Source of the DNA: an uncultured Methylobacillus sp.
GTDB lineage: Bacteria > Pseudomonadota > Gammaproteobacteria > Burkholderiales > Methylophilaceae
Direction: 5' to 3'
Length of the DNA stretch: 44,397 nt
Assembly (NCBI GenBank): GCA_946481235.1
Contig: CAMLME010000001.1
Span: 1 to 44,397 of the forward strand
In this document: one piece after another, positions 9,081-34,423 of the stretch
Position numbering within the stretch: the stretch's first letter is position 1
Layout: each line of letters begins with the position of its first letter
The notes under the pieces: generated by a model
What the model was told of the DNA's origin: nothing
The model's input: only the letters and a program-made list of their open reading frames with translations
The model's database searches: none
Made by a program: the position numbers and the translations under genes

Positions 9081-9096
9081 GGCAATTAGCGTGCCA
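9081..9096 (-). promoter_or_regulatory. Sigma-54 promoter of the epsA operon
   Basis: The minus strand reads TGGCACGCTAATTGCC, matching TGGCACG-N4-TTGC at every fixed position. Predicted start is near 9070. An IHF-consensus site ends 6 nt upstream of the -24 box, and the dyad at 9227-9244 is centred 153.5 bp upstream of the -12 C. The intergenic stretch 8917-9553 holds these elements and a leader of about 150 nt; I see no gene in it. Confidence 0.82.
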
Positions 9097-9102
9097 TGTG
9101 CG

Positions 9103-9115
9103 TAAGTATTTGATA
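9103..9115 (-). promoter_or_regulatory. IHF-consensus site in the epsA promoter region
   Basis: The minus strand reads TATCAAATACTTA, an exact match to WATCAANNNNTTR. It is placed between the enhancer-like dyad and the sigma-54 promoter, where bending would bring the activator to the polymerase. Confidence 0.6.
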
Positions 9116-9226
9116 TTTAATGATAAGAACTGGAGTGTCAGAAGCGGAGTCGTACGATTTCCGTCTCCAAAAAACGACATGAAGCTTATAGCCGCTTGTA
9201 ACTACATGATTTATATTGAGTTGTAT

Positions 9227-9244
9227 TGTCTCAGCTTGAAGACA
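9227..9244. promoter_or_regulatory. Enhancer-like dyad TGTCT-N8-AGACA upstream of epsA
   Basis: TGTCT (9227-9231), 8-nt spacer, AGACA (9240-9244). The flanks extend the symmetry to ATTGTCT...AGACAAT (9225-9246). The same core occurs at 25620-25637 and 34406-34423, each upstream of a sigma-54 promoter. I read it as the binding site of a sigma-54 activator. It could also act on the plus-strand gene at 9554. Confidence 0.68.
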
Positions 9245-9553
9245 ATCGAGCGGTAGACGATTTCCAGCTGTCCATCCGGCCCATTCCATCCCTCTGTTCT
9301 GCCGGGTAGGATTAAAAACTTCCTTTTGCTTCAAATACTTTCGGCGACAGTCGATTCGTAGTCTATTCGGCCTATTGTTGAATAAAGATCCAATTCTTAC
9401 GATGCAGTCAAAGTCTGGAAGCGAGATTTGATGACTGTTTTTTTACGGCTTTCATCCTGCTTATTGCGGCAACCCCGCGTCTCGCAGCACTTTCCATAAC
9501 CTGGCGTGCGAAGGATGACCTCACATGAACAGTCACTTTGACGGAGCCCGGCA

Positions 9554-10120
9554 ATGTCTTACGAACAGATTTTCAACCTCAACCTGAATACAGGCGCGAT
9601 TCGGATGAACGATGCCCCTAACAAAATTTATAGCGACCTGAACGATCTGGGCCGAGCCGAGAGCTATATGGATGAAATTTACGAAATCATTCATGAGATT
9701 CGCTTGTTCGATGATTTCGGCATGGATGAGATCAAGGTGCTGTGCCATTACCTGCACTGCTATGCCGCCCCGCGACATTACCCGTTGCTGAAGGAGGGCG
9801 ACAGCGGCGACTTCATGCTGCTGATCCTGACCGGCTCGGCCGAAGTGCGGGTGCAGATACCAGGCATCGGTAACGAAAAAATTGCCGAACTGCGGCCGGG
9901 TTCTACCGTAGGCGAGACTTCGATGATCGACGGCATGCCGCGCTTCATTACCTGTATTGCCACGGCTCCCACGGATTTTGCAGTACTGACGCGAGACTCG
10001 TTCAACAGCATCCTGATGCAGGCGCCCCGTTTGGGTAACAAGCTCCTGCTGACGCTGCTGCATCTTCTATCGGCCCGCCTTCGCGAGGCCTATAACCCTG
10101 CTCCGGTCGCAACTTCCTGA
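9554..10120 (+). CDS. Cyclic-nucleotide-binding-domain protein
   Basis: A 188-residue protein with a single cNMP-binding (Crp-type sensor) domain at about residues 55-165: HYPLLKEGDSGDFMLLILTGSAEVRVQ and ELRPGSTVGETSMIDGMPRFITCIATAPTDFAVLTRDSFNSIL. The usual phosphate-binding cassette GE...R..T/S appears as GETSMIDGMPRFITC. There is no helix-turn-helix after it, so it is not a classical Crp-type regulator; it may sense a nucleotide and act on a partner. It is the first gene of the plus-strand EPS arm, 49 nt ahead of epsE, and faces epsA across a 637-nt regulatory region. Confidence 0.85.
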   Translation: MSYEQIFNLNLNTGAIRMNDAPNKIYSDLNDLGRAESYMDEIYEIIHEIRLFDDFGMDEIKVLCHYLHCYAAPRHYPLLKEGDSGDFMLLILTGSAEVRVQIPGIGNEKIAELRPGSTVGETSMIDGMPRFITCIATAPTDFAVLTRDSFNSILMQAPRLGNKLLLTLLHLLSARLREAYNPAPVATS

Positions 10121-10169
10121 GCAGGCCGACCCAGGCCGTCCAGCCGGGTAAATTGAAAGAGGTGATACC

Positions 10170-11237
10170 GTGATTAAAAAAATATTTGCTCTGTTTTCCC
10201 TGATGGGCATGCTGGCCTTTGCGCCGGCAACCATGGCGGCGGATACGTCGACCGGCGGTTATCTGATCGGGCCGGGCGACGCTCTCCGCATTTCCGTATT
10301 CCAGAATCCCGACTTGTCGCTGGAAACGCGTGTTGCCGAAGACGGCACCATTTCGTTTCCGCTGATCGGCGTCGTCAAGGTCGGTGGGCTGCAACCCGCA
10401 GCTGCCGAGAAGCTTATTGCCGACAAGCTGAAGAATGGCAAGTTTGTTAAGCAGCCGCAGGTGAACATTGCGTTGACCGAAGTGCGCGGCAGCCAGATTG
10501 CCGTGATGGGCCTGGTCAACAAGCCCGGCCGCTTCCCGCTGGAAGCTTCCAGCGCGCGTCTGGCTGACATCATCGCCCAGGCGGGCGGTGTCGTGCCTGA
10601 AGCCGGCGGCGGTACCGCCGTGGTCACCGGCAGCCGCGAAGGCAAGACTTTCCGCCAGGAAGTCGATCTGGTGACGCTGTTCAGCGATCAAACCGGCAAG
10701 AGCAACTTCATGCTGAAGAATGGCGACGTGGTGTACGTGACGCCGGGCAACCAGGTGTCGGTGCTGGGCATGGTGAACAAGCCGGGCCGCTTCCCGATCG
10801 AGAATTCCAAGATGTACCTGACCGACGTGCTGACGCTGGCCGGCGGTCTTTCCTCCGGCGCTTCCGATGTCGCCATCCTCAGCGGGCAGCGTGACGGCAA
10901 GCCGTTCCGCAAGGAAGTCGATCTTGCCGCTATCTACCTGAATGCCAGCCCTGACTCCAACGTTATCGTGGCCGCGGGGGATGAAGTCTACGTGCACCGT
11001 GCGCCCGTGTTCTACATCTATGGCGAAGCGCAGAAGCCTGGCGCCTACCGCATCGAGCGCAACATGACCGTCATCCAGGCCCTGGCCCAGGGCGGCGGCC
11101 CGACCGCACGCGGTACCGAACGCGGCCTCAAGCTGCTGCGCCGCACTGCGGACGGCAGTAATCAGGAGATTCGTCCCAAGATGACGGATCTTATCCAGCC
11201 GGACGATGTGCTCTACGTGCGGGAAAGCCTGTTCTAG
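10170..11237 (+). CDS. epsE: EPS export protein EpsE (Wza-type, polysaccharide export and SLBB domains)
   Basis: A 355-residue periplasmic/outer-membrane export protein. The signal peptide is MIKKIFALFSLMGMLAFAPATMAA. A polysaccharide-export domain follows (YLIGPGDALRISVFQNPDLSLETRVAEDGTISFPLIG), then three SLBB-type domains. The first two begin with the near-identical MGLVNKPGRFPLE and LGMVNKPGRFPIE; the third begins YIYGEAQKPGAYRIE. It forms the outer part of a Wzx/Wzy-type export channel. No lipobox Cys follows the signal peptide, unlike E. coli Wza. The start is GTG at 10170, preceded by GAGGTGATACC. EpsF begins 9 nt after its stop. Confidence 0.93.
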   Translation: MIKKIFALFSLMGMLAFAPATMAADTSTGGYLIGPGDALRISVFQNPDLSLETRVAEDGTISFPLIGVVKVGGLQPAAAEKLIADKLKNGKFVKQPQVNIALTEVRGSQIAVMGLVNKPGRFPLEASSARLADIIAQAGGVVPEAGGGTAVVTGSREGKTFRQEVDLVTLFSDQTGKSNFMLKNGDVVYVTPGNQVSVLGMVNKPGRFPIENSKMYLTDVLTLAGGLSSGASDVAILSGQRDGKPFRKEVDLAAIYLNASPDSNVIVAAGDEVYVHRAPVFYIYGEAQKPGAYRIERNMTVIQALAQGGGPTARGTERGLKLLRRTADGSNQEIRPKMTDLIQPDDVLYVRESLF

Positions 11238-11246
11238 GGGATTATC

Positions 11247-12644
11247 ATGAACCTGACCTTGCTCCTGCTGATGCTGCGCGCACGCCTCAAGATCGTGCTC
11301 GCGACCTTCCTCGTCACCGTGCTGACCGCGACCGCGGTCAGCCTGATGATGCCCAAATACTACCGTGCTACGACGCAGGTCGTACTGAGTTACACCGGCG
11401 TAGATACTGTAACGGGCTCTCCACTGCTGGCCGCCACGATGCCCGGCTTCGTGCAGACGCAGATCGACATCATCAAGAATCGCAGCGTCGCGCTGAAGGT
11501 GGTCGACGATCTCCAACTCACTTCCAATGCGACCTTGCGTGAGTTGTTCGAAGATGCGACTGAAGGCCGCGGCAGCATCCGCGACTGGATTGCCAATCGC
11601 CTGATGGCGCGTCTGGCCGTCGATCCGTCTGCCGACAGCAGCGTGCTAAGCATCACTTACGAAGACAAGGAATCGCGCATGGCGGCCGATGTCGCCAACG
11701 CCTTCGCCCGTTCGTATCGCGATCTGAGCACGCAGTTGAAGGTGGAGCCGGCGCAGTACGCGGCGGATTACTTCAGCAAGCAGGCCAAGTCGCTGCGCGA
11801 CAACCTGGAACGCGCGCAGAACAAGCTGTCGGAATACCAGCAGAAAAACGGCATCACCAGCGCGGATGAAAAGCTGGACGTGGAAGTGGCGCGTCTCAAT
11901 GATCTCTCGCAGCAGCTGGTGATGGCGCAATCGATGGCGATCGAGGCGCGTTCGCGTCAGGCCGGCGCCGGTATCGACTCTCCCGACGTGGCGCAAAACC
12001 CGGTAGTGCAGAGCTTGCGCATCGACGAAGGCAAGGCCGCTTCCAAGCTGGCCGAGCTGTCCGAGCGCCTCGGCTCCAACCATCCGCAATACATCGCGGC
12101 CCAGGCCGAGCTGAGCAAGATACGCGGGGAACTCTCCCGCCAGATCGGCAGCGCCTCCAACAGCATCTCCGGCAACGCGCGCATTCATGAACGCCGCGAA
12201 GCCGATCTGCGTGCGCAGGTGGCGATGCAGAAAGCCAAGGTGCTGGAGGTTAACCGGACGCGCGATGAGCTGTCGGTGTTGAAGAAGGATGTGGAAATGG
12301 CGACGAAAGCCATGGATACCACCGCCCAGCGCTTCACTGAAACCAGCATGGAAGGCCAGTCCAATCACAGCGACGTGTCGCTGCTCAGCCCCGCATTGCC
12401 GCCGGGTATGCCGGCATCGCCCAGGGTCGGCCTCAACATCGCGCTTTCGATGGTGCTGGGACTGCTGCTGGGCACGGCGCTGGGCCTGATCATGGAATTG
12501 CTGGACCGTCGCGTACGCAGCAGCAACGACGTTGCCAATCTGTTGAGGGTGCCCGTTATTTCCCTGATACAGGAAAGACCCACCGTGACAGGCATGCGAA
12601 TGCTGCCGGGGCCGACTACCGGCAGATACTTGCCTTCGACCTGA
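11247..12644 (+). CDS. epsF: Chain-length determinant protein EpsF (Wzz family)
   Basis: A 465-residue polysaccharide co-polymerase of the inner membrane. An N-terminal transmembrane helix (IVLATFLVTVLTATAVSLMMPKYYRATTQVVLSY) is followed by a long periplasmic region with coiled coils at about residues 180-350 (DNLERAQNKLSEYQQKNGI, ERLGSNHPQYIAAQAELSKI). A second transmembrane helix near residue 395 is preceded by the Pro-rich SPALPPGMPASPRVGLNIALSMVLG. It controls polymer length together with the partner kinase EpsG, whose gene starts 9 nt later. The length and motifs fit the EpsF family of XrtB-type EPS loci. Confidence 0.92.
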   Translation: MNLTLLLLMLRARLKIVLATFLVTVLTATAVSLMMPKYYRATTQVVLSYTGVDTVTGSPLLAATMPGFVQTQIDIIKNRSVALKVVDDLQLTSNATLRELFEDATEGRGSIRDWIANRLMARLAVDPSADSSVLSITYEDKESRMAADVANAFARSYRDLSTQLKVEPAQYAADYFSKQAKSLRDNLERAQNKLSEYQQKNGITSADEKLDVEVARLNDLSQQLVMAQSMAIEARSRQAGAGIDSPDVAQNPVVQSLRIDEGKAASKLAELSERLGSNHPQYIAAQAELSKIRGELSRQIGSASNSISGNARIHERREADLRAQVAMQKAKVLEVNRTRDELSVLKKDVEMATKAMDTTAQRFTETSMEGQSNHSDVSLLSPALPPGMPASPRVGLNIALSMVLGLLLGTALGLIMELLDRRVRSSNDVANLLRVPVISLIQERPTVTGMRMLPGPTTGRYLPST

Positions 12645-12653
12645 GGAAAAATT

Positions 12654-13529
12654 ATGAACATAAGCCCTCTCAATCCCAATAGCTTGCCGCTGACGACAGG
12701 CCATTACCGCGACACGATGATCGGCCGGATCCTGCAGGATCTTGGCAAGATCAGTGCGGAAGAAGCCGAACGTATTCTGCAACTGCAAAAGAAGGAAGGG
12801 CTGCGTTTCGGCGATGCAGCAAGAAAGCTGCGACTAGCCTCGGAAGCCGACATCCTGCAGGCGCTGGCAATCCAGTTCGACTATCCCTACCTGTCGCCAG
12901 ACAAGGGGGAAGTCAGCAAGGAACTGATCGCGGCCTACGAGCCGTTCTCGCCGCAAGTGGAAGCGCTGCGTGCCTTGCGCAGCCAGCTGATGCTGCGCTG
13001 GTTCAATCACGGCAACAAGGCGCTGGCAGTCATTTCGGCCAACGCCGGCGAAGGCTGCAGCAATCTCGCAGCCAATCTCGCCATCGTATTCTCGCAACTG
13101 GGCGAGCAAACCCTGCTGATCGACGCCAACCTGCGGCGTCCGACGCAGCAAGCGCTGTTCAACCTGCGCGAAACGCGCGGGCTGTCGGATGTGCTGATCG
13201 GCCGTGCGAGCATCGACGTCATCACGGATGTCGAGTCCATCACCAATCTTTCGGTACTGGGGGCGGGCACCATTCCGCCCAATCCGCAGGAGCTGCTCAA
13301 TCGCAAGAGCTTCGCCGAACTGATCAACGTGGTGCAGGACATCTACGACATCGTCATCGTCGATACCGCACCGGCGATCGCCGCCTCCGACGCGCAGGTC
13401 GTCGCCGCAAGGACGCGGGGTGCGCTGCTGGTGTCCCGTCTCAATGAAACGCCGCTGTCAGATGTCGCCAATGTCGGCGATCAGTTGATTGTGAGCGATG
13501 TGCAACTGGTGGCCGCCATCGTTCTGTAA
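12654..13529 (+). CDS. epsG: EpsG, tyrosine-kinase-family partner of EpsF with degenerate Walker motifs
   Basis: A 291-residue cytoplasmic BY-kinase-family ATPase. An N-terminal GspE-like segment (GRILQDLGKISAEEAERILQLQKKEGLRFGDAARKL) precedes the P-loop domain. The P-loop reads SANAGEGCS, so the Walker A lysine is Cys135 (codon TGC at 13056-13058). Walker A' reads LLIDANLRRP, with Asn159 for the second Asp. Walker B is intact (IVIVDTAPA, Asp237). There is no C-terminal tyrosine cluster; the protein ends QLVAAIVL. It should work with EpsF in chain-length control, but kinase activity is doubtful. Some EpsG relatives are, to my recollection, also non-lysine at this site, so this may be a family trend. 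Confidence 0.9.
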   Translation: MNISPLNPNSLPLTTGHYRDTMIGRILQDLGKISAEEAERILQLQKKEGLRFGDAARKLRLASEADILQALAIQFDYPYLSPDKGEVSKELIAAYEPFSPQVEALRALRSQLMLRWFNHGNKALAVISANAGEGCSNLAANLAIVFSQLGEQTLLIDANLRRPTQQALFNLRETRGLSDVLIGRASIDVITDVESITNLSVLGAGTIPPNPQELLNRKSFAELINVVQDIYDIVIVDTAPAIAASDAQVVAARTRGALLVSRLNETPLSDVANVGDQLIVSDVQLVAAIVL

Positions 13530-13600
13530 CCCCGTTGCCGGTGCGGCGGCCGCAGCGCTGCCTGCTGCCGGCACATCCGTATCCATAAAAGAGAATTTTC

Positions 13601-14899
13601 ATGGCTTTTGCCGCCCTGTTGAAATCGTCGAGCAGGACTTTGATGACCACCGTCGCCGTCACGGCGATCGGATTTTTTACTTCGGTCATCACCGCGCGCA
13701 TTCTCGGCCCGGAAGGCCGGGGGCTGTTATCCGGCGCGCTGCTGATTGCGACGCTGGCCGGCAACGCCTCGCTCTTCGGGCTGGCCAACAGTTTCATTTA
13801 TCACAAGGGCGCCGGCCGGCCGTTCAACTACGGGCTATGGATGGTGTTCTCGCTGGCATTCGTCGCCGGCCTGTCGGTCATGCTGGCGTGGCTGGGCATG
13901 AATGTCACCCGCGAGGCGCAACTGCACGATCAGTTGCCGCTAATCCTGCTGCTGACGGCGGCGACGGCGGGGCAGGGGTATTTCTACGCCTTGAGCCAGT
14001 TGCACGACGGGCTGCATTTTTTCAACCTGATGCGCTTCCTGCTGGTGGTCGGCAACCTGGTGTTGCTGCTGGGGCTGATAGCGGTCATGGATACCGTGGA
14101 TTTCAAGGCCATCCTGATCACGCAGATGATCGTGGCCGCTGCGCTGACGCTGCTGGGCATTTTGTGGGCGCAGCGCAACAAGGTCTGGCAGGTGCCCGAA
14201 ACCGACAACCCGCCCGCCACCTGGAAAGGCATGCTGGGTTATGGCGCCAGTCATCACGGCACGGTGCTGCTGAGCCTGTTCCTGGTCAATTTCGACAAGA
14301 TCGCGCTGCTCAACATCGGCACGATTGTGGAATATGGCTTCTACGCGCTGGCCTTCACCACCTCGCGCCTGATCGGCGCGGTGCAGGAAGCGGTGTCGAC
14401 GGCGCTCTATTCGCGTTTCGCCGGCAAGGATGTCGTCGCACTGTCGCACCACGTGCGTGTCGCCTTCCGCGTGACCTTCGTACCGATGCTGCTGCTGGCT
14501 GCACTGGGCGCGGCGCTGTCGCCGTGGCTGATCAAGTGGGTGTACGGCGAGTCCTTCGTGTCGATGACGATCCCGTTCGCGATCCTGCTGTTCGAGTGCG
14601 TCATTACCGGCGCGAGCTGGACGCTGGCGCAGCGCTTCAATGCCGGCGGGCGTCCGGGACTGGTGTTCGTACGGCAGTTCATTTCGGTGGTGCCGGTATT
14701 CATGGCGCTGCCGTTCCTGCCCAAGCAGGACATCCACATCTACCTGAGCATGCTGATGCTGTTTGGCGCCGTGCTGAGGTTGACGGTCACGCTGGGGATT
14801 TATCCCCTGGTGCTGAAGGAACGCATACCGGACATGCTGCCGACCATGGCGGATTGCACGGCTGCATTGAGATTATTTACGAGGCGCAGTTATGGATAA
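13601..14899 (+). CDS. Lipid-linked oligosaccharide flippase (Wzx family)
   Basis: A 432-residue polytopic membrane protein with about 12-14 hydrophobic segments from the first residues to the end. The opening TVAVTAIGFFTSVITARILGPEGRGLLSGALL carries the RxLGPxGRG signature of the polysaccharide-transport (MATE/MVF) group. It should flip undecaprenyl-linked repeat units across the inner membrane. ATG at 13601 follows AAGAGAATTTTC. Its end overlaps the next gene by 8 nt, so the cluster continues as one operon. In typical XrtB-type loci an exosortase gene would stand near here, after epsG. Confidence 0.9.
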   Translation: MAFAALLKSSSRTLMTTVAVTAIGFFTSVITARILGPEGRGLLSGALLIATLAGNASLFGLANSFIYHKGAGRPFNYGLWMVFSLAFVAGLSVMLAWLGMNVTREAQLHDQLPLILLLTAATAGQGYFYALSQLHDGLHFFNLMRFLLVVGNLVLLLGLIAVMDTVDFKAILITQMIVAAALTLLGILWAQRNKVWQVPETDNPPATWKGMLGYGASHHGTVLLSLFLVNFDKIALLNIGTIVEYGFYALAFTTSRLIGAVQEAVSTALYSRFAGKDVVALSHHVRVAFRVTFVPMLLLAALGAALSPWLIKWVYGESFVSMTIPFAILLFECVITGASWTLAQRFNAGGRPGLVFVRQFISVVPVFMALPFLPKQDIHIYLSMLMLFGAVLRLTVTLGIYPLVLKERIPDMLPTMADCTAALRLFTRRSYG

Positions 14900-15887
14900 A
14901 AATTTGAACGTCGAGACACTGCGGGAAAGCGACATCCCCGAATTCAACCATACCGTGATGATGACGGCGCTGGCCGACAAACATCAGGTGATTGCCGATC
15001 TGGTCGGCGGCAAGCCGTTCCATTACATCGATTATCCGGTGCACGGCAATATCGGCGATTTGCTGATCATGCATGGCACGCTGGCCTTCTTCGATCGCTA
15101 CCACCTGAAGCCGCTCATCAGTGCGCCGGCCTTTTCTTACAACCCGGGCTGGATCGAAAAGGGCGACGTGATCCTGTTCCACGGCGGCGGCAATTTCGGC
15201 GATCTGTATTCCGCCTACGGCATGCAGGCGCTGCGCGAACAGGTAGTGAGCACTCGCACGGATAACCGCATCATCGTGTTGCCGCAGACCATCCATTTCA
15301 GCTCGCTGGAAGAACGGAAACGTTCCGCGCGGCTGTTCCGCAACCATCCGGACGTCCACCTATGCGTGCGCGATTACGCCTCTTACGAAATCGCGAAGGA
15401 TTTTACCGATCACGTCCACCTGCTGCCGGACATGGCGCATCAGCTTTATCCCATCATGCCCAAGCACACGGCGACGACCGGCGCATTGCTGATCAGCCGC
15501 ATGGATGACGAGAAGCGCGCCTCCGGCGATGGCAACGATATCGAATATGCCGCCAAGACCGATTGGCCCATCGTTGTCGGCGAGCGTGAGCGCAACATCG
15601 ATTTCTTCCGCCGCGCGATGCGCAGTACCTACCGCCTGGGCATCGGCTGGAACTCCAACAAACTGCTGTCGCGTCGCTGGGCCGCCTATTCCGGCAAGCT
15701 GGTCGACGACGCGGTCAAGCTGTTCTCGCTGCACAACCACATCGTGACCGACCGTCTGCACGGCCACATCCTGGCGTGCCTCATGAATAAATCAAGCACC
15801 GTGCTGGACAACAGCTACGGCAAGAATTCGAGTTATGTCAGCGCGTGGACGGCCAATAGCGAATTGGTCGCCCTGCAGAAAGGGTAA
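14892..15887 (+). CDS. Polysaccharide pyruvyl transferase family protein
   Basis: A 331-residue protein of the polysaccharide pyruvyl transferase fold (EpsO/YvfF-like). Visible signatures are YIDYPVHGNIGDLLIMHGTLAFFDRY, VILFHGGGNFGDLYS, IIVLPQTIHF and the C-terminal HNHIVTDRLHGHILACLMNK. Members add a pyruvate ketal from phosphoenolpyruvate to a sugar of the EPS, giving it negative charge. The acceptor sugar cannot be told. Its ATG overlaps the flippase stop by 8 nt. Confidence 0.87.
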   Translation: MDKNLNVETLRESDIPEFNHTVMMTALADKHQVIADLVGGKPFHYIDYPVHGNIGDLLIMHGTLAFFDRYHLKPLISAPAFSYNPGWIEKGDVILFHGGGNFGDLYSAYGMQALREQVVSTRTDNRIIVLPQTIHFSSLEERKRSARLFRNHPDVHLCVRDYASYEIAKDFTDHVHLLPDMAHQLYPIMPKHTATTGALLISRMDDEKRASGDGNDIEYAAKTDWPIVVGERERNIDFFRRAMRSTYRLGIGWNSNKLLSRRWAAYSGKLVDDAVKLFSLHNHIVTDRLHGHILACLMNKSSTVLDNSYGKNSSYVSAWTANSELVALQKG

Positions 15888-15898
15888 GGATAAAAATC

Positions 15899-16978
15899 AT
15901 GGCTACGTTTGATGTGCTGCTCCCCGTCAAGAATGGGGTCGATTACCTGGCAGAGGCACTGGACAGTATCTGCCTGCAAACTTTCCGCGATTGGCGCGTG
16001 TTCGTGCTGGACCACGGCTCGACCGATGGCAGCCTGGAGCTGGCCCACAGTTACGCCGAGCGCGACAGCCGCATCGTCGTGCGGTCGCTGCCGCAGGCGA
16101 ATGGCCTGGCCGGATTGCTGAACGCCGGCCTGGACATGTGTGACGCGAAATACGTGCTGCGCCAGGATGCCGACGATATCTCGCTGCCGGAGCGCATGGA
16201 AGTGCTGGCCGCGGCGATGGGCGCGGACCCCGAACTGGTGCTGGTCGGGTCGCTGGGCGACGTCATTGACGCGTCCGGCCGCAAGATTGGCCTGCTTGAT
16301 ATGCCCACCGGCATTCATGGCGTGCTCACCGCGACGCCGTTCCGCACGCCGGTCGCCCACCCGACGGTGGCGATGCGGCTGGATGCGCTGCGCTGCATGG
16401 ACGCCAGATACGGCGTGGATTTCATCGGCGCGATGCCGGTCGATCGGCAGATGAGCGTGCCGGGCTTGGCCGAGGATTACTTCCTGTTCGGCCAGCTGGC
16501 GCTGGTCAGCCGCTGCATGAACATCAACCAGAGCCTGATCAAGTACCGCTGGCACGGCTCCAACGTCGGCGCGACCAAGTACGTCGACCAGACCGACCTG
16601 GCGCTGCGCATCTCGCGCTACCTGACCGAGTCGCTCGCCATCATCAACAACACCAAGGGCTTCGATCCCGCGCCGTTCTGCAATCACGGCGTCAACCTGA
16701 TCAATTTCCACGGCCGCACGGATTTCTCGGAAGAGTACGAGCAGATGCGCCGCTTCATGACCAAGGTGATGCCGGAATCGTTGGAGCTGCAGCGCGAGCT
16801 TTCCTACCGCAAGGCGATTTCCAATCGTCTCAACCCGGTGATGGGCGCGCGCTACGCCGGCCATGCGGCGCGTCACGGCATACGCCATGTCGAATGGCGC
16901 ACGGTGCGCTCGTGGATGATCAAGGACCTGAAGAAGCAGCCCATCCTGACGCTGACTGCTTCAGGGCTGGTGGCCTGA
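15899..16978 (+). CDS. Family 2 glycosyltransferase
   Basis: A 359-residue cytoplasmic GT-A glycosyltransferase. The N-terminal nucleotide-binding fold reads FDVLLPVKNGVDYLAEALDSICLQTFRDWRVFVLDHGSTDGSLELA, with the metal-binding region VLRQDADDISLPERMEVL. HPTVAMRLDAL and GLAEDYFLFGQLALVSR further on belong to the acceptor half. It should add one sugar to the lipid-linked EPS repeat unit on the cytoplasmic face. It lies 11 nt after the pyruvyltransferase-like gene and 3 nt before the polymerase. Donor and linkage are unknown. Confidence 0.9.
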   Translation: MATFDVLLPVKNGVDYLAEALDSICLQTFRDWRVFVLDHGSTDGSLELAHSYAERDSRIVVRSLPQANGLAGLLNAGLDMCDAKYVLRQDADDISLPERMEVLAAAMGADPELVLVGSLGDVIDASGRKIGLLDMPTGIHGVLTATPFRTPVAHPTVAMRLDALRCMDARYGVDFIGAMPVDRQMSVPGLAEDYFLFGQLALVSRCMNINQSLIKYRWHGSNVGATKYVDQTDLALRISRYLTESLAIINNTKGFDPAPFCNHGVNLINFHGRTDFSEEYEQMRRFMTKVMPESLELQRELSYRKAISNRLNPVMGARYAGHAARHGIRHVEWRTVRSWMIKDLKKQPILTLTASGLVA

Positions 16979-16981
16979 GTC

Positions 16982-25637: not shown

Positions 25638-25674
25638 GACTTAATCAATATAAATCAGTGACTTATCGTGATTG

Positions 25675-25767: not shown

Positions 25768-25783
25768 TGGCACGCGGATTGCT
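25768..25783 (+). promoter_or_regulatory. Sigma-54 promoter of the wecG-galE-galU-epsL operon
   Basis: TGGCACGCGGATTGCT matches TGGCACG-N4-TTGCW at every fixed position. Predicted start is near 25794. That leaves a short leader with a GGAAGGA ribosome-binding site before the start codon of the transferase gene. Confidence 0.87.
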
Positions 25784-25825
25784 ACATCATGTAACGATAT
25801 AGCTGACTTGGAAGGAATTTTGAAA

Positions 25826-26611
25826 TTGAGCCTGGGTAAGGTCGTTCCTATTGCTGGCTTCCCCGTCCACGAAGCAACACCGCAGGATCTGGCGATCCAT
25901 CTTTTATCCGTATTGCGGCAGCACGAAAAAATCTCACTGCTGTTTGCCAATAGCAACTTTGTCGTCAAGTGCAAAGCGCTTCTGGGGCGCATGTACAACG
26001 ACAGCGTGCTCATCGTCAACGATGGTGTTGGCCTGGATATCGTTGCCAAATTCATGCGCGGCCGTGCGTTCAAGGCCAACCTGAACGGTACCGACTTCAC
26101 TCCCTACCTTTTCCGCGAATCCTCCCGCCCGTTGCGCGTTTTCATGCTGGGCGCGAAGCCGGAAATCGTGGAAAAGGCCGTCAATTACGTTGAACAGCAA
26201 CTGGGGCAGGTGGTGGTCGGCTACTGCGATGGTTATAGCGGCCTGCGCGACAGCGATGAAATCATTGCCCGCATCAATGCTTCCGAGGCCGAAGTCCTGC
26301 TGGTTGCGCTGGGCAATCCGCTGCAGGAGGAGTGGATACTCAACCACCGCGATGCGCTGGACGTCGGTGTCGTCACTGGCGTGGGTGCGCTCTTCGATTT
26401 CTGGGCAGGCAACAAGCCGCGAGCGCCTGCACTTATCCAGAAAATGCGGATGGAGTGGTTCTATCGGCTATGCCATGAACCGCGACGATTGCTGCGCCGG
26501 TATACGCTCGACATGCTGGTGTTTTTTGCGCAGTGCCTCAAGTACCGCAAAGGCCCGGATATCAAAGAAATTTCTGATGCAACGTCCAAACCGGTCATTG
26601 AAAACTCATAA
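25826..26611 (+). CDS. WecG/TagA/CpsF family glycosyltransferase
   Basis: A 261-residue GT26-family enzyme. Signatures are LLFANSNFVVKCKALLGRMYNDSVLIVNDGVGLDIVAKFMRG, LNGTDFTPYLF, RVFMLGAKPEIVEKAVNYVEQQL, VLLVALGNPLQEEWI and VGALFDFWAGNKPRAPALIQKMRMEWFYRLCHEPRRLLRRY. Family members add ManNAcA, ManNAc, glucose or similar sugars to a lipid-linked acceptor. The frame opens with TTG at 25808, but GGAAGGA at 25810-25816 and the promoter's predicted start near 25794 favour the TTG at 25826 (25820 is possible). First gene of a sigma-54 operon. Confidence 0.88.
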   Translation: MSLGKVVPIAGFPVHEATPQDLAIHLLSVLRQHEKISLLFANSNFVVKCKALLGRMYNDSVLIVNDGVGLDIVAKFMRGRAFKANLNGTDFTPYLFRESSRPLRVFMLGAKPEIVEKAVNYVEQQLGQVVVGYCDGYSGLRDSDEIIARINASEAEVLLVALGNPLQEEWILNHRDALDVGVVTGVGALFDFWAGNKPRAPALIQKMRMEWFYRLCHEPRRLLRRYTLDMLVFFAQCLKYRKGPDIKEISDATSKPVIENS

Positions 26612-26620: not shown

Positions 26621-27619
26621 ATGAAAATATTAGTCGTTGGCGGCGCAGGATATATCGGTTCCCATATGGTCAAGATGCTGCTGGAAGAAGGGCATGAGGT
26701 CGTCACCTACGACAACCTGTCTTCCGGATTCCGCGATGCCGTGCTCGGGGGTGAATTCGTGAAAGGTGACCTGGCGGACAAGGCCAGGCTGGACGAGGTA
26801 TTCCGTGTTCACCAGCCCGAGGCTGTCATGCACTTCGCTTCGCATATCCAGGTAGGCGAATCCGTCCGTCATCCGGACAAGTACTATTTGAACAACGTCA
26901 GCAATACATTGAATCTGCTGGATGCCATGGTGCGTCACGAGGTGGAGTATTTCATCTTCTCCTCGACCGCGGCCATTTTCGGCGAGCCGGAATATATCCC
27001 GATCGATCATGCGCATCCCAAGGAACCACTCAATCCCTACGGTCGCTCGAAATGGATGATCGAGCAGATCCTGGGGGATTACGAAAACGCCTACGGGCTC
27101 AAGTCGGTCTGCCTGCGCTATTTCAACGCTGCAGGCGCGGATCCCTCGGGTTTGCTCGGCGAGCGCCACGACCCCGAGACGCACCTGATCCCGCTGGTGC
27201 TCCAGGCCCTCTCCGGCCGTCGCGAATCGATCACCGTGTTCGGGCGCGATTACGACACGCCGGACGGCACCTGCATGCGCGACTACATCCACGTGGTCGA
27301 TCTGTGTACCGCACATCTATTGGCGTTGCAGCGCCTGATGGCGACCGGATTGAGCCGTCGCTACAACCTGGGCAACGAATCCGGCTATACCGTGCAGGAA
27401 GTCATCGATGCCGCAGAAGCGGTAACCGGCTGTGTGGTTCGTGTCGAGGAAGGCCCGCGCCGCCCCGGCGATCCGGCCATGCTGGTGGCAGACGCCACCC
27501 TGGCGCGCGAAGAACTCGGATGGAACCCTGTTTACTCCGATCTCGACACCATCATCAAGCATGCCTGGCAGTGGGAGATGCTTCATCTCCAGAGCGAACG
27601 CAAGCAATGCGTGGCTTGA
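26621..27619 (+). CDS. galE: UDP-glucose 4-epimerase
   Basis: A 332-residue extended short-chain dehydrogenase. It interconverts UDP-glucose and UDP-galactose in the cytoplasm using bound NAD. The NAD-binding motif is MKILVVGGAGYIGSHMV (GxxGxxG), the active-site block is FSSTAAIFGEP and YGRSKWMIE (YxxxK), and substrate-binding parts include LRYFNAAGADPSGLLGERHDPETHLIPLVLQ and YDTPDGTCMRDYIHVVDL. It lies 9 nt after the wecG-type gene and supplies precursors for the EPS. Confidence 0.93.
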   Translation: MKILVVGGAGYIGSHMVKMLLEEGHEVVTYDNLSSGFRDAVLGGEFVKGDLADKARLDEVFRVHQPEAVMHFASHIQVGESVRHPDKYYLNNVSNTLNLLDAMVRHEVEYFIFSSTAAIFGEPEYIPIDHAHPKEPLNPYGRSKWMIEQILGDYENAYGLKSVCLRYFNAAGADPSGLLGERHDPETHLIPLVLQALSGRRESITVFGRDYDTPDGTCMRDYIHVVDLCTAHLLALQRLMATGLSRRYNLGNESGYTVQEVIDAAEAVTGCVVRVEEGPRRPGDPAMLVADATLAREELGWNPVYSDLDTIIKHAWQWEMLHLQSERKQCVA

Positions 27620-27658
27620 TTGCCGCGTTTTTATCAACTTGTTAGAAAAATCGATACC

Positions 27659-28597
27659 ATGACAAAAATTACCAAAGCTGTTTTCCCTGTTGCCGGTCTC
27701 GGCACCCGTTTTCTCCCTGCCACCAAGGCCAGCCCGAAGGAAATGCTGCCCATCGTGGACAAGCCCTTGATCCAGTATGCGGTTGAAGAGGCCGTTGCCG
27801 CCGGCATTACCGACATGATCTTCATCACCGGGCGCAACAAGCGCTCCATCTCGGACCATTTCGATATGGCGTATGAGCTCGAAAACGAACTGGAGCTCAA
27901 CGGCAAGCAGGCGCTGCTCAAGGTCGTGCGCAGCATCGTGCCCAAAAACATCAACTGCATCTACATTCGCCAGAACCGTGCCTTGGGTCTTGGCCATGCC
28001 GTTCTGATGGCAAAGCCGGTAGTGCAGGATGAGCCGTTTGCGGTATTGCTCGCCGATGACTTGCTCGATGGCAAGACGCCGGTAATGAAGCAGATGGTGG
28101 AGGCATACGATTATTACAATTGCTCGCTGCTGGGCGTCGAGGATGTGCCGCGTGAACAGACGCGCAGCTACGGCATCGTTGCCTCGCGCCCCCTGGATGA
28201 CAGGGTCGAACAGGTTTCCGGCATCGTCGAAAAGCCCAAGCCCGAAGACGCCCCTTCCACGCTGGGGGTGGTCGGCCGCTATGTGCTGACGCCGCGAATC
28301 TTCCATTATCTGGAGAACATCCAGGCCGGTTCCGGCGGTGAAATCCAGCTCACCGATGGGATTGCATCGCTGCTCAACGAAGAGCAAGTGCTCGCTTATC
28401 GCTATGAGGGCATACGCTACGATTGCGGCTCCAAGAACGGCTATCTTGAAGCGACGGTCAAGCTCGCACTACGCCATCCAGAGGTTGGCAAGGAGTTCCG
28501 GGCCATGCTGGAAGCAATGTTCGAGCAATCTCCTGAAATTAGCGCCAAAGCCTTTGAAAAAACAAGGGAATTGCTTGTGGTGGGTGGCAATAGTTGA
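27659..28597 (+). CDS. galU: UTP-glucose-1-phosphate uridylyltransferase
   Basis: A 312-residue nucleotidyltransferase that makes UDP-glucose from UTP and glucose-1-phosphate. The N-terminus [40 protein letters not shown] is the GalU nucleotide-binding signature. [28 protein letters not shown] and [11 protein letters not shown] follow. The frame opens at 27620, but ATG at 27659 ([13 protein letters not shown]) is the family start. UDP-glucose feeds GalE, the EPS transferases and also OpgH, whose gene lies just downstream in opposite orientation. Confidence 0.95.
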
Positions 28598-28663
28598 TGT
28601 TTGATTTTTGCTATGCTATGGTCCTTTCAGGTTAAGGAATTAAAGAAAAAGGGAGCATATCGG

Positions 28664-29956
28664 ATGGCAAATTCGGACAGCGCGGGTGATTTCAAAAAAA
28701 GGCCTCGCAAGACCTTGAATCCCGGCACCTGCAGCAAAGTTCTTGTGACTTCCATTCTGACCTTGGCGCCGGCTGTTGCCGGCGCGGGCGGTACTGTTTA
28801 CGCGCCCGATCCGCTCGACAAGATCGAAAATACCGATACGCTGAATTTTATCGTCGGAGGCCAGGTACGCTACGACAGCAACCTGTTCCGCCTGTCCGGC
28901 TCCGAAGATCCGGAGCCGTTTCTCGGCAGATCGCAGAAATCCGACATCATTTACACAACCAATGCCGGGATACGCATCGACAAGCCATACTCGCAGCAAC
29001 GGTTTGTGATTGATGCGATGGTGGTCGATAACCGCTTCAAGACTTACGATTTTCTCGATTACACCGCTTTCAACTACAGCGCCGCCTGGCACTATCATGT
29101 GACGCCGCGCATCAGCGGCATCCTGCTGGCCGAGCAGAAGCAGGAACAGAACAGCTTCGCCGAGTTCCGTGAAACCGAGAAAAACGTGCAGACCAGCAAT
29201 GTACGGTTGTTCACCGTTGACGGTGATATCGGCGGAGGTTTCCATGCGTTGGCAGGCCTGCTGGACGTCAGGGCCCGCAACAGCAAGCAATTCGAGCAGA
29301 TCGGCGATTACCAGCAGGACGGTTTCGAACTGGGTGGCAAGTGGGTAGCGCGCTCGCAAAACTGGATTTCGCTGCTGCAGCGCGAGACGGATGGCGAATA
29401 CCGTGGACGCGCGCTCGATCCGGTTCAGCAGCTCGATACCGGCTTTGACCAGAGTGAAACCGAGGCCAATGTTTTCTGGCGCCTTACCGGAAAATCCACC
29501 ATCGACGGCAAGCTGGCCTATGTAAAACGCGAGCATGACAACTTCGATGACCGCGATTACTCGGGCATGACCGGCCGCTTCCTCTATCGCTGGGAAGTCA
29601 CGGAGAAAACCTCGCTCAATTTATCGTTGTCACGCAACATCTACAGCTATCAGGAAGACGAAAACAGCTACTACATCGCCGAGACCTTCTCGATAGCGCC
29701 CGTATGGGAATACAGCCCCAAGACCACTTTCCGCGCACGCTACGACTATAGCGACCGCGACTACCGCGGTGCCATCACAGCCATCCCGGAGCTGCGTCAG
29801 GACAAGCTGCAAATCTTTCAACTTGCCGCAGACTGGAAGGCTGCCCGCAACATTATCGTGACCGGCATATTGCAGCGCGACAAGCGGAGTTCGAACTTCG
29901 AGGACTTTGATTACAACGCGAATTCGGCCAGTATCAACGCGCAGTTCCTGTTCTGA
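28664..29956 (+). CDS. epsL: EPS outer-membrane beta-barrel protein EpsL
   Basis: A 430-residue outer-membrane protein of the EpsL type found in XrtB-associated EPS loci. After a basic N-terminus and signal region (KVLVTSILTLAPAVAGAGG) it is a run of alternating beta-strand-like segments (LNFIVGGQVRYDSNLFRLSGSEDPEPF, SLNLSLSRNIYSYQEDENSYY, TFRARYDYSDRDYRG). It ends in SASINAQFLF, with the terminal Phe usual for barrels assembled by BAM. ATG at 28664 has GGGAG upstream; the frame itself opens at 28601. It may help export or anchor the polymer. Last gene of the sigma-54 operon, closed by the terminator at 29987-30020. Confidence 0.88.
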   Translation: MANSDSAGDFKKRPRKTLNPGTCSKVLVTSILTLAPAVAGAGGTVYAPDPLDKIENTDTLNFIVGGQVRYDSNLFRLSGSEDPEPFLGRSQKSDIIYTTNAGIRIDKPYSQQRFVIDAMVVDNRFKTYDFLDYTAFNYSAAWHYHVTPRISGILLAEQKQEQNSFAEFRETEKNVQTSNVRLFTVDGDIGGGFHALAGLLDVRARNSKQFEQIGDYQQDGFELGGKWVARSQNWISLLQRETDGEYRGRALDPVQQLDTGFDQSETEANVFWRLTGKSTIDGKLAYVKREHDNFDDRDYSGMTGRFLYRWEVTEKTSLNLSLSRNIYSYQEDENSYYIAETFSIAPVWEYSPKTTFRARYDYSDRDYRGAITAIPELRQDKLQIFQLAADWKAARNIIVTGILQRDKRSSNFEDFDYNANSASINAQFLF

Positions 29957-30108: not shown

Positions 30109-32679
30109 TCAGGCGTAAGCCGGATTGACGAACTCCTCCATGCCGAAAGACTGGACGCGCGGGACGCGTACTTCGGTTTTGAACCAGCCAGTATAGGCAG
30201 AAGGCGAGGACCATACCTGGAAGTGCAGGTGCGACAAGGCGTGGACGTCGTTGAGCAGGATCATCTTTTCCTGGACGTTCAGCGCATCCGGACCATTCCG
30301 TAGGGCCTTATCCACCAGACGCAGGCGATTACGGCGCAAGGGCTCGGGCTGCGGAATACGCACGGTGCCGAAAGAGCACATCAAGGCATTCACGCTGGGG
30401 TTGGTGACGGCCTCGCTGAAGTCGTGCTGTTTTATCGTATATCCCATTTCCGTTTGCACGCTACGCAATTCCTCCGGTGGGTTGACTTCTTCAGGAATGA
30501 GGAAGAAGCCGAGCCTGCGCAGCTTGCGGCCGAATGCCGGGCTGCTGGTGTAAACCGAAATCGGGATCGAGAATACCAGCGCCCCCAGAATGGGAAGCAT
30601 CCACAGCAGGAATGACGGATTGAGCCAGTAGACGGCTGCTCCCCACACGAAGCCGAGCAGCGTGTGCCATCCGTGGTGGCGGGCCGCCAGGCCCCATGGC
30701 GTCGCGGTATCTTCGCGCGGCGGCGATTTCCACTGGATTTTAAGGCCGGTCAGGGCGGCCAGGACGAACTGCGTATGGAACAGCATGCGTATTGGCGCCA
30801 TCAACATCGAGAACAGCCATTCGGCAAGCATGCTGATCAGCAGTCGTAGCGTCCCGCCGAACTGGCGCGTGCCGCGCATGATGATGAGTGCGACGCTCAG
30901 CAGCTTGGGCAGGAACAGCCAGGTGGCCGTCACGCCGAACAAGGCCATCGCGCGCTCCGGATGCCATTCCGGCCATATCGGGAATAGCTGTTGCGGCTGC
31001 ACGAAATACTCCGGCTCGACCAGGGTGTGTTCTGCCAGCAGCCAGGTGGAGAGCAGCAGGAATGCCAGCCACAGCAACGCTGAAACATAAGCGACTACTC
31101 CGGTTACGAACACCGCGCGGTGGGCCGCATGAAATCCTGGCGCCCAGAGCAGGCGGAAATTCATCAGGTTGCCATGGCACCAGCGGCGGTCGCGATTCAG
31201 TTCATCCAGCAGGTTGGGTGGCATTTCCTCATAACTGCCGGGCAGGTCGTAGGCAATCCACACGGCCCAGCCGGCGCGGCGCATCAAGGCTGCTTCGACG
31301 AAATCGTGCGACAGGATTTCGCCCGACAATGAGCCGCGGCCCGGCAATCGGCCGAGTGCGCAGTGCTTGATGAATGGCTCGACGCGGATGATGGCGTTAT
31401 GGCCCCAGTAATGCGATTCGCCCAATTGCCAGTAGTGCAGGCCGGCGAGAAAGAGCGGCCCGTAAACCCGGCTCGCGAATTGCTGTAGCCGCGCATAGAA
31501 AGTGTCGCGTCCGGCAGCGTGAGGCCCGGTCTGGATGATGCCGGCATTGGGGTTGGCTTCCATCAATTGCGTCAGCCGCGACAGGCAGTCGCCGGTCATC
31601 ACGCTGTCCGCATCCAGGACCACCATGTAGCGATAGTTGCTGCCCCAGCGGCGGCAGAAGTCGGCGACGTTGCCGCTCTTTCTTTTGATCCGGTGCTGGC
31701 GCCAGCGGTAGAAGATACGCCCGAAGCCGCCGACGCTGCGGCACAGTTCCAGCCAGGCTTCGGATTCGGCAACGCGGGTGTCAGGATCGTTGCTGTCGCT
31801 CAGCACGTAGAAATCGAAGTGCTGCAGATTTCCTGTTTTTTCCAGCGACTCGTAAGTCGCACGCAGGCCGGCAAAGACGCGTGCCACATGCTCGTTGCAA
31901 ATGGGCATGATGATCGCGGTGCGGGCGTCGGGCGCAATGGGTGTGTCGTCGGCGGCGCTTTTTGAAATCGCATGGCGATCTCCGCCGAATTGCAACACGT
32001 AATAACCCATGAGCGCAGTCCAGAATCCGGCTGAGACCCAGGCGCAAAGAATTGCGAAGAGCGACAGTACCGCCATTTCCAAGGGTTTTTCGCCGTGATA
32101 GGGCAGCACTGCCATCATGGAATACGTCGCCATGACGGTTTGGGCCAGAATCAGCAGTATCAATACCGTGCGGCGCACGCTGGCTATGCGATGCCAATGA
32201 CCGCGCGGATCGGGCGAGTCGGGCGTGACTTTGCCGGTACGTTGCGCGCCTCCCGGACGCAGCCAGCTCATCAGCTTGCCTAGCATCGCGCGTACAGGAT
32301 TCGGCGGCCAGGACACCGGCGCCATCGGCGTCCGGTTGATCGGCGGCGCGACAGACAGGGAGGGCTCAGGCGTTTCCGCTGACGCAGCAGCGGTGTAATG
32401 CTGGGTCGCTTCCCTGTTTTCGGCGAGCGAATTGCCATATGCGAATTGCAGGCGGCGATTGACGGAAGCCCAGGCAGGGTTATCCAGGTCGAAGCCTTCG
32501 CCGGCAAGCACCTCATGCAGGCAGATCAGGGCGGATGATGGATCGGCAGCGTCTTCGGATTCGGCAACCTTGCGCAATACCGACTGGCGCAACTCCGTAT
32601 CCACCGGAAACTGGTCGAGATAGCGTTCGCAGGCCGCTAATGCGGACCCGCTCAATCGGGGGGAAGTATGTAGGTCCAT
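30109..32679 (-). CDS. opgH: Glucans biosynthesis glucosyltransferase OpgH (MdoH)
   Basis: An 856-residue inner-membrane glucosyltransferase that builds the beta-1,2-linked backbone of osmoregulated periplasmic glucans from UDP-glucose. A soluble N-terminal part is followed by two membrane helices ([51 protein letters not shown]). The GT2 domain has [68 protein letters not shown]-type blocks and [31 protein letters not shown], the last with the RRW motif. Six further helices follow. The frame extends to 32775, but ATG at 32679 overlaps opgG by 28 nt and gives a normal N-terminus. Confidence 0.94.
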   Translation of the reverse strand: [856 protein letters not shown]

Positions 32680-34223
32680 GTCTCTGAGATCGCCGTGTTG
32701 TTGCTGCGCAGATAGCTGCGCAGCTCGATGGGTTTGTTGTTGTCCACGCGCTTCACGCGGATGGATTGCCTCCACGTGCCGGTGACAACATTGGGATAAA
32801 GCGTGTTTTCTACAAGCTGGCCGTTGTCGTCGATGGACACGACTGCTTCCATCTTGGCCTCTGTACTCATCTTGCGCAGCCCCGGGCCGTCGAAATCAAG
32901 AATGAAGCCGATGCTGCCGTCCGGATGCTTGACGTAACTGTTGCCACGCCGTGTTTGCACTACCCAGGAGGAAGGTGGCCGGGTTTCATTATCCTTCTGC
33001 CACTGGATGCGGTATTCCAGGCTGTAGGGTACGCGCGGCTTGGGCGGCGTATCCGGGATCCAGTAGGCGACGATGTTGTCGTTGGTTTCGTCCGGCGAAG
33101 GAATCTGCACCAGTTCCACACGCCCCGGCCCCCAGTCACCCTTGGGCTCGATCCAGGCACTGGGCCGTTTATCGTAGCGCGCCTCCAGGTCTTCGTAATG
33201 GCTGAAATCGCGGTCGCGCTGCATCAGGCCGAATCCGCGCGGATTGACGGTCGAGAACGAAGTGGTGAGCAGGCGCTTGGGGTTGATTAGCGGTCGCCAC
33301 ATCCATTCTTCATTGCCGGTGCGTACCTGCAAGCCGTCCGAGTCGTGCACTTCGGGCCGGAAGTCATCTACTGGTGCCTTGTTGTTTTCGCCGAAGAAAT
33401 ACATGCTGGTCAGCGGCGCGATGCCCAGCTTGCCGACGTTGTCGCGCATGAATAGGCGGCTGTAGACATCCATGGTCGTGTTCGCGCCCGGCGTGATGAC
33501 GAAGCGATAGGCGCCGACGGCGCGCGGCGAATCCAGCAGGCCGTAGATCACCAGATGTTTACTGAACATGCTGGGCCGTTCCAGCCAGAATTCGACGAAA
33601 CGGGGAAACTCCTCGCCCGAGCTCATTGCCGTGTCGATGGCCAATGCCCGCGCCGATAGTCCATATATCTGACCTTTGCCCAGCGCGCGGAAATAGCTGG
33701 CACCGAGGAATACCAGGACTTCATCCTTGTATTGCGGGTTATTGATCGGGAAGTGAACGCGGAAGCCGGAAAACCCTACGTCCTTCCATTCCTTGGTGTT
33801 GAATTTGTTGGCGCCGTAATCGAAATTGGCAGGATCCAGCTTGATTTCATGCACACCCTGGCTATTGATCTCATTGATCTTGACCTGCTGGTTGTAGTGC
33901 CAGCCCTGATGGAAGAAAGTCAACTCGAAAGGCAGATTGGCACTACGCCAATGGGATTTATCGGGCTTGAAGCGGATATCCCTGAATTTGTCGTAATCTA
34001 GGGTTTCCAGGTCCTTGGGCAGGCTGGTGTCAGCTTTCTTGAAAGGCGTCGCAGACAACTGCTCGGCGCGCTTGGCGACATCATTGAAATCAAAGGCAAA
34101 CGCTGCATGGCTCCACAGCAACAAAAAAATGGCAAAAGCCATGTATCCCGTGAAGCGGTTATAAAAAAATAACGGATTTAAGCCATTGTTTTTATCGCTG
34201 ATTAATAAGTATTGTTTTTGCAC
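32652..34223 (-). CDS. opgG: Periplasmic glucans biosynthesis protein OpgG (MdoG)
   Basis: A 523-residue periplasmic protein of the OpgG/OpgD family, needed for glucan backbone synthesis and branching. After the signal region (MAFAIFLLLWSHAAFA, cut before FDFNDVAKRAEQL) come RDIRFKPDKSHWRSANLPFELTFFHQGW, VLVFLGASYFRALGKGQIYGLSARALAIDTA and PLTSMYFFGENNK. The open frame begins with TTG at 34259, but that TTG is part of the -12 element of the sigma-54 promoter at 34255-34270 and cannot be translated from it. GTG at 34223, with GGAGA seven nt upstream and about 22 nt after the predicted start, is preferred; ATG 34142 is a fallback. Confidence 0.93.
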   Translation of the reverse strand: MQKQYLLISDKNNGLNPLFFYNRFTGYMAFAIFLLLWSHAAFAFDFNDVAKRAEQLSATPFKKADTSLPKDLETLDYDKFRDIRFKPDKSHWRSANLPFELTFFHQGWHYNQQVKINEINSQGVHEIKLDPANFDYGANKFNTKEWKDVGFSGFRVHFPINNPQYKDEVLVFLGASYFRALGKGQIYGLSARALAIDTAMSSGEEFPRFVEFWLERPSMFSKHLVIYGLLDSPRAVGAYRFVITPGANTTMDVYSRLFMRDNVGKLGIAPLTSMYFFGENNKAPVDDFRPEVHDSDGLQVRTGNEEWMWRPLINPKRLLTTSFSTVNPRGFGLMQRDRDFSHYEDLEARYDKRPSAWIEPKGDWGPGRVELVQIPSPDETNDNIVAYWIPDTPPKPRVPYSLEYRIQWQKDNETRPPSSWVVQTRRGNSYVKHPDGSIGFILDFDGPGLRKMSTEAKMEAVVSIDDNGQLVENTLYPNVVTGTWRQSIRVKRVDNNKPIELRSYLRSNNTAISETWTYILPPD

Positions 34224-34254
34224 AACCAAATCTCCGAATAGACCTGTATTGCTA

Positions 34255-34270
34255 GGCAAGAAGAGTGCCA
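34255..34270 (-). promoter_or_regulatory. Sigma-54 promoter of opgGH
   Basis: The minus strand reads TGGCACTCTTCTTGCC: perfect TGGCAC and TTGC boxes at the right spacing, with only the G after TGGCAC replaced. Predicted start is near 34245. The stretch 34260-34739 holds this promoter, an IHF site and the dyad. I see no gene in it. Confidence 0.8.
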
Positions 34271-34306
34271 GCTAAAAAGAAGGGTTCGGCACACAAAAAT
34301 ATTTTT

Positions 34307-34319
34307 TAAGTAGTTGATT
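34307..34319 (-). promoter_or_regulatory. IHF-consensus site upstream of opgG
   Basis: The minus strand reads AATCAACTACTTA, an exact match to WATCAANNNNTTR. It lies 36 nt upstream of the -24 box, 30 nt more than at epsA, close to three helical turns. Confidence 0.55.
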
Positions 34320-34405
34320 ATTAATGGTTCGATCGGGCTATGAAGATCTCTTTTTCAAGGCTCGGACAACTTAAATATGGCTTAAAGGGTGCGAATTTCA
34401 ATAGA

Positions 34406-34423
34406 TGTCTCCTTATCGAGACA
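34406..34423. promoter_or_regulatory. Enhancer-like dyad TGTCT-N8-AGACA upstream of opgG
   Basis: TGTCT (34406-34410), 8-nt spacer, AGACA (34419-34423), with A/T extending the symmetry by one pair. Its centre is 158.5 bp upstream of the -12 C of the opgG promoter. Third occurrence of this core, again upstream of a sigma-54 promoter. Confidence 0.65.

Follow-up and report, generated by a model that had tools for sequence, protein, structure and literature searches.

A predicted GlrR (QseF) enhancer shared by exopolysaccharide, UDP-glucose and periplasmic glucan promoters of an uncultured Methylobacillus

Enterobacterial GlrR (QseF) controls sigma-54 promoters, among them those of glmY and rpoE P2, from TGTC-N10-GACA boxes with the help of integration host factor (IHF) (PMC8745638, PMC6075780; both in the accessible text). 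The consensus is given as TGTCN10GACA (PMC8745638, available part), and the sites are also described as IHF-assisted TGTN12ACA elements, three of which lie at glmY (PMC6075780, available part). The PrsK/PrsR system resembles it in having a response regulator predicted to act with sigma-54, here linked to exopolysaccharide (EPS) loci and acting on a box that precedes a -24/-12 promoter (PMC1569441, accessible portion). Sigma-54 has been portrayed as a controller of the bacterial exterior, EPS included, in PMC3162934, the accessible portion of which lists QseF-like activators without an EPS target. We have analysed a stretch of 44,397 nucleotides (‘the window’; contig CAMLME010000001.1, positions 1 to 44,397) from an uncultured Methylobacillus sp., a genus of the Methylophilaceae (Betaproteobacteria), in which three sigma-54 promoters, those of epsA-epsB, wecG-galE-galU-epsL and opgGH, each have a TGTCT-N8-AGACA dyad upstream that conforms to the GlrR consensus. 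Two further sigma-54 activators, NtrC in Burkholderia cenocepacia and DctD2 in Vibrio vulnificus, are reportedly tied to EPS genes; they are different activators from the one proposed here. The dyads are very probably upstream activating sequences of a GlrR orthologue, which would activate the three promoters jointly with IHF and sigma-54; the case is built on sequence comparison.

The dyads lie at 9227-9244 (- strand), 25620-25637 (+) and 34406-34423 (-), as an earlier note on this DNA had reported, and no fourth was found in the window with up to one mismatch allowed. Three exact copies compare with 0.023 expected on average under a Markov model, none of whose 300 simulations gave more than 1; the scan with at most one mismatch also gave three (shuffle mean 0.59, three being reached in 2 of 100 shuffles). 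The only exact matches to TGGCAC-N5-TTGC in the window are the three sigma-54 sites, at 9082-9096 (-, TGGCACGCTAATTGC) for epsA-epsB, 25768-25782 (+) for wecG-galE-galU-epsL and 34256-34270 (-) for opgGH. The dyad is upstream of its promoter by 148-153 bp in all three cases. From the coordinates, the dyad centre is 153.5 bp from the -12 C at epsA and at wecG and 158.5 bp at opgG; these are the values of the earlier note, whose gene identities (epsA, epsL, wecG-type, galE, galU and opgG/opgH) are likewise upheld by family models.

Relatives were drawn from a search of genome contigs, from which 80 of 99 epsA loci were kept; a scan of viral contigs gave two EpsA relatives and was uninformative. 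Methylobacillus sp. MM3 is the closest among the epsA loci listed (its EpsA is 90% identical to that of the window) and serves as stand-in genome. Whole-genome searches of six genomes whose epsA carries the dyad returned seven strict dyads in MM3 and two in each of the other five (reversed control 1, 0, 0, 0, 0, 0). A sigma-54-like site (at most two mismatches) is found within 260 bp downstream of 15 of these 17 dyads, at 144-159 bp in 13 of the 15. This genome-wide scan, which the earlier note had proposed, supports its central claim that epsA, wecG-galE-galU-epsL and opgGH have in common a single sigma-54 activator, whose gene is not in the window. The seven dyads of MM3 are found at epsA, wecG, opgG and a 53-amino-acid (53-aa) open reading frame (ORF), as two tandem boxes on contig C11 and as one promoterless copy on C57. 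All of epsA, wecG and opgG are boxed in the window, in MM3 and in one further genome, G002.

The tandem boxes on C11 point to the activator. They are perfect, lie 64 bp apart and are followed by a perfect sigma-54 site directly 3' of the gene for a 454-aa sigma-54 response regulator (L100:6632-7996). Ahead of the regulator gene in its operon come genes for a histidine kinase (481 aa) and then a 204-aa predicted lipoprotein, the same kinase-lipoprotein-regulator order as E. coli glrK-qseG-glrR. Among NCBIfam models the regulator scores highest with GlrR (619 bits; next model 420), below the curated GlrR cut-off of 763; because of this score we name it an orthologue and not a family member by cut-off. 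Searches with E. coli GlrR return this regulator as the top match in ten of ten genomes at 57-60% identity, other matches reaching at most 45%, and E. coli and MM3 GlrR have the segment RNRTEFYKLL in identical form. The lipoprotein has no NCBIfam match and no GlrK model is among the 25 models listed for the kinase; their identities as a QseG-like protein and as GlrK rest on gene position. The gene rpoN, which the earlier note had named as one to look for, was found in ten of ten genomes. A target adjoins the operon in both organisms, on the 3' side of glrR in MM3 and 5' of glrK, as glmY, in E. coli. The MM3 target, directly behind the enhancer, is a gene for an exported-looking EF-hand and BON-domain (OsmY-like) protein (L100:5910-6428); counterparts occur in L172, L175, L177, L187, L188, L189 and L192, and in L180 with the EF hands only.

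The earlier note had hinted at PrsR, the PEP-CTERM-box response regulator, as the activator. MM3 does encode a PrsR above cut-off, and its link to EPS loci would suit the genes concerned. Its box is, however, described as a 17-nt element that ends in TTTACA and lies ~63 nt upstream of the promoter (PMC1569441, accessible portion), whereas the conserved boxes here are TGTC-N10-GACA and adjoin glrR. A PrsR above cut-off is present in 3 of 10 genomes that bear the box, GlrR being found in 10 of 10, and the recognition segment of PrsR, VSRPTIYDLM, differs from that of GlrR. PrsR as the activator is thus extremely unlikely and was rejected on box, distribution and recognition segment, the box being judged by its published description and not by a scan with its logo.

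For a position matrix, 30 boxes adjoining glrR were taken from MM3 and the other members of a set of 15 genomes of its family, with the EPS and glucan sites excluded. Upstream of glmY, E. coli has three exact TGTCN10GACA boxes, of which two (5958 and 6021) are separated by 63 bp, and on an 8-kb E. coli stretch the matrix ranks these three first to third (24.4, 21.5 and 17.8; next 8.0). On the 44-kb window its seven best matches are six promoter boxes and an in-gene site at 38039-38056, which ranks fifth; this last GlrR-like box (score 15.7) is within an ORF and is probably due to chance. Over 290,577 positions of 14 loci picked from the 80, four scores reach at least 15, and all four belong to the epsA pairs of L001 and L002. 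The matrix gives every dyad of the window promoters a partner box at a distance of 65-66 bp (63 bp box to box at E. coli glmY). The dyads of the earlier note are one half of each predicted enhancer, the other half of which it had overlooked. The second boxes at epsA and wecG match seven of the eight fixed positions of TGTC-N10-GACA; the opgG partner is weaker.

Another activator of the NtrC family with the same box preference could drive the EPS and glucan promoters, GlrR being confined to its own locus; in the MM3 genome the sigma-54 activator domain finds 14 matches, of which several are weak. This is very unlikely, since a matrix derived from glrR-adjacent boxes alone returns the EPS and glucan boxes as its best matches, and since these boxes share the 64-66 bp pairing with the glrR-adjacent ones and, at epsA and wecG, the promoter distance as well. 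To the idea that the dyads are chance palindromes or functionless relics we give practically no credence. Strict dyads that have no sigma-54-like site do occur, in MM3 (C57, L098) and in G004 (L105), and were set down as chance, but the excess of exact dyads in the window, each paired with an exact sigma-54 site, the conservation of box position over diverged genomes and the restriction of high matrix scores to epsA pairs in the 14 loci all speak against it.

At epsA, the predicted distal GlrR box is TGTCTTCAAGCTGAGACA (9227-9244, -, from the dyad scan; matrix score 19.1) and box 2, at +65 from it, is found at 9162-9179 (-) with the second-best score in the window (19.4; P 0.0018). Between the two, at +33 from the start of box 1, is the IHF-like site AATCATGTAGTTA (9199-9211, -; shuffling gives P 0.0006 for the interval +32 to +34). 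Here and below, IHF-like sites were called against the IHF consensus and are predicted sites. The promoter precedes epsA itself (8122-8916, -), an XrtB/PEP-CTERM-associated LuxR-type regulator (TIGR03020, 289.6 bits, cut-off 170), and epsB (6720-8189, -), an undecaprenyl-phosphate glucose phosphotransferase with an uncertain start that overlaps epsA and is probably co-transcribed with it.

The wecG operon repeats this arrangement on the + strand. Box 1 (25620-25637, dyad scan and matrix) is followed at +33 by the IHF-like site AATCAGTGACTTA (25653-25665; P 0.0008 by shuffling), at +65 by box 2 (25685-25702, matrix; P 0.00165 by shuffling) and then by the promoter. The genes, all on the + strand, are a wecG/tagA/cpsF-type glycosyltransferase (25808-26611, PF03808), which may truly start at TTG 25820 after GGAAGGA; galE, UDP-glucose 4-epimerase (26621-27619, TIGR01179, above cut-off); galU, UTP-glucose-1-phosphate uridylyltransferase (27620-28597, TIGR01099, above cut-off); and epsL, an XrtB-associated EPS outer-membrane protein (28601-29956, TIGR03014). 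The distance from the distal box to the promoter is ~148 bp at epsA and wecG, against 107, 170 and 203 bp in E. coli.

The opgGH promoter is arranged differently. Its perfect box (34406-34423, -, dyad scan) has the best matrix score in the window and is the proximal one; the weaker predicted partner lies 66 bp upstream (34472-34489, -; score 12.1, or 13.3 with uniform background). The IHF-like site, AATCAACTACTTA (34307-34319, -), is found only between the box and the promoter, at +104 (P 0.025 for a match anywhere between). In MM3, opgG has an IHF-like site at the same +104 offset and a partner box at -64 (score 15.8). The listed opgG ORF begins at TTG 34259 and overlaps its own sigma-54 promoter; the start is likely the in-frame ATG 34142, which gives opgG (mdoG, MdoG match) the coordinates 32652-34142 (-). 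It is followed by the glucosyltransferase gene opgH (mdoH, MdoH match; 30109-32775, -).

A gene-blind search for the box-plus-promoter pattern was run on 187 genomes of MM3's family and found 39 sites in 27 genomes (reversed control 2). Fifteen, one in MM3 and the others in 14 more genomes, directly follow glrR on its 3' side, no more than 83 bp beyond where the match ends. Another fifteen stand at other genes: four at epsA, four at wecG, one at opgG, one at a second epsB, one at the 53-aa ORF and four elsewhere. Spacing was surveyed in 39 hand-chosen sites that partly overlap the 39 of the family search; a second box (at least 7 of 10 letters) is present at +64 to +69 in 34 of them and an IHF-like site at +33 or +34 in 21. 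The second epsB site, in G112, has its partner box upstream, at -66. Order-wide, the pattern occurs in 69 of 399 genomes (6 control matches); of 40 matches selected because they looked paired, 22 adjoin glrR and one (L306) precedes two genes that resemble epsB and epsL. The idea that the boxes serve EpsA, itself of LuxR type, or the cyclic-nucleotide-binding protein encoded at 9554-10120 of the window was set aside, because the same boxes adjoin glrR in stretches where the eps genes searched for were not found.

By analogy with the E. coli system, from which phosphorylation, binding, activation and the signal are all carried over, an envelope signal would lead the kinase GlrK to phosphorylate GlrR, as part of an envelope-sensing GlrK-QseG-GlrR system. 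Phosphorylated GlrR would bind both boxes, IHF would bend the DNA, and GlrR would remodel the RNA polymerase-sigma-54 complex at the -24/-12 promoter. In this way epsA-epsB, wecG-galE-galU-epsL and opgGH would be switched on together, and UDP-glucose may couple the two polymers metabolically, as the earlier note had proposed. For the main EPS operon (9554-25568, +), no sigma-54-like site was found in the 260 bp next to the dyad on its side. It lacks a GlrR-type enhancer, and GlrR would therefore reach it via EpsA, if at all; a cascade in which EpsA in turn induces this operon is conceivable.

Several observations weigh against a conserved, GlrR-driven set of this kind. The earlier note had named loss of the dyad in relatives that keep the genes as counting against its proposal, and such loss is in part what is seen: most epsA loci lack the enhancer, 8 or 9 of the 80 carrying one. 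With the matrix, credible epsA enhancers are those of L001, L002, L003, L004, L010, L011 and L053; the site of Methylovorus menthalis (L005) is weak and has no second box, and that of L049 is at an unusual 124 bp. Within the genus, the epsA genes of M. gramineus, M. caricis and M. arboreus show no dyad or sigma-54-like site in 600 bp upstream, and these three species do have glrR with variant boxes beside it. The two Nitrosospira/Nitrosovibrio epsA sites show no second box at +64 to +69. Among 24 further glrR loci (end-variants allowed), 11 have a box and a sigma-54-like site adjoining and 13 do not, ten of the 13 being from Nitrosospira/Nitrosovibrio. At the window opgG the pair is 153 and 219 bp upstream and there is no IHF-like site at +33; opgG was found in 3 of 29 genomes searched (MM3, G002 and G183), with a single box in G002 and none in G183. 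Nine of the 39 family sites are uncredited. Eight of them have no partner box, and six of the nine are inside ORFs; the ninth, L198 (G121), has a strong box pair (19.8 and 23.2) 65 bp apart at ~0.8 kb from the glrR 3' end, with an unclear promoter. To these are added the two promoterless strict dyads, the GlrR score of MM3 below its cut-off and the fact that a glrR gene in the genome of the window is assumed from its relatives.

The same observations bear on whether the boxes bind GlrR while the operons are not one co-induced set, other inputs leaving EPS and glucan synthesis uncoupled in practice. The different geometry of opgG, the many epsA loci that have no box and the rarity of opgG would all agree with this, and we regard it as unlikely yet of real weight; on the other side, the window, MM3 and G002 each have boxes at all three promoters. 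Joint activation by GlrR remains the preferred reading. The phylogenetic profile of GlrR is insufficient alone because the protein is too common, being present in 35 of the 49 epsA genomes (the only ones examined for GlrR). In the 14 GlrR-less genomes no credible box was found at any epsA locus; a sigma-54-like site is present at three of these loci (best dyad score 3.4) and at none of the rest. Five Methylotenera loci (L014, L015, L016, L017 and L070) retain a sigma-54-like site, 210-234 bp ahead of epsA, and show no GlrR box; they may be served by another activator.

Both GlrR and its box were already known. The known E. coli targets of GlrR are a small RNA and a sigma factor, whereas those predicted here comprise a regulator of EPS and genes that serve the making of EPS, UDP-glucose and periplasmic glucan. 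This target set was not found in print: mostly open-access literature, including the accessible text of PMC3162934, PMC11594007, PMC13340212, PMC9850573 and PMC12194929, yielded no GlrR/QseF regulon with EPS targets. The PrsK/PrsR system differs in box, spacing, recognition segment and distribution (PMC1569441, accessible portion). An activator candidate with coordinates can now be named for the EPS genes of methylotrophic Betaproteobacteria, where previously it was only ‘encoded elsewhere’. If the assignment is true, the reach of GlrR grows from an enteric small RNA and sigma factor to direct control of polymer synthesis, and the enhancer grammar (box, often IHF, box, promoter) makes further GlrR targets findable by sequence alone. 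We offer more tentatively, and with slightly more doubt than confidence, the view that betaproteobacterial GlrK-QseG-GlrR is an ancestral, direct switch for the material of the surface and the periplasm. Its two-box (~65 bp) enhancer, which recurs beside glrR, would have been placed repeatedly before EPS, UDP-glucose, periplasmic glucan, PEP-CTERM and cyanophycin genes, and the enterobacterial glmY/rpoE circuit would be one derived branch.

Paired GlrR-type boxes also precede genes of other kinds. Cyanophycin-synthetase-like genes are behind them in three genomes (L107:6725-11626, L285:1659-3815 and L287:1653-3770). In Nitrosospira briensis, which also has PrsR, a PEP-CTERM protein gene (L106:6677-7285) follows such a pair with a weak promoter match. 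G183 has a gene for a 2098-aa multihaem cytochrome (L184:3164-9460) and a pyrroloquinoline quinone (PQQ)-dehydrogenase-like gene (L186:3749-5572) in this position. The 53-aa ORF of MM3 (L099:6173-6334, -) is an acidic orphan with a good ribosome site behind a paired enhancer and a sigma-54 promoter, and has no match among the other 186 genomes searched. In the window, the EPS locus is flanked by a gene for an EAL-domain (cyclic-di-GMP phosphodiesterase-like) protein at 4239-5636.

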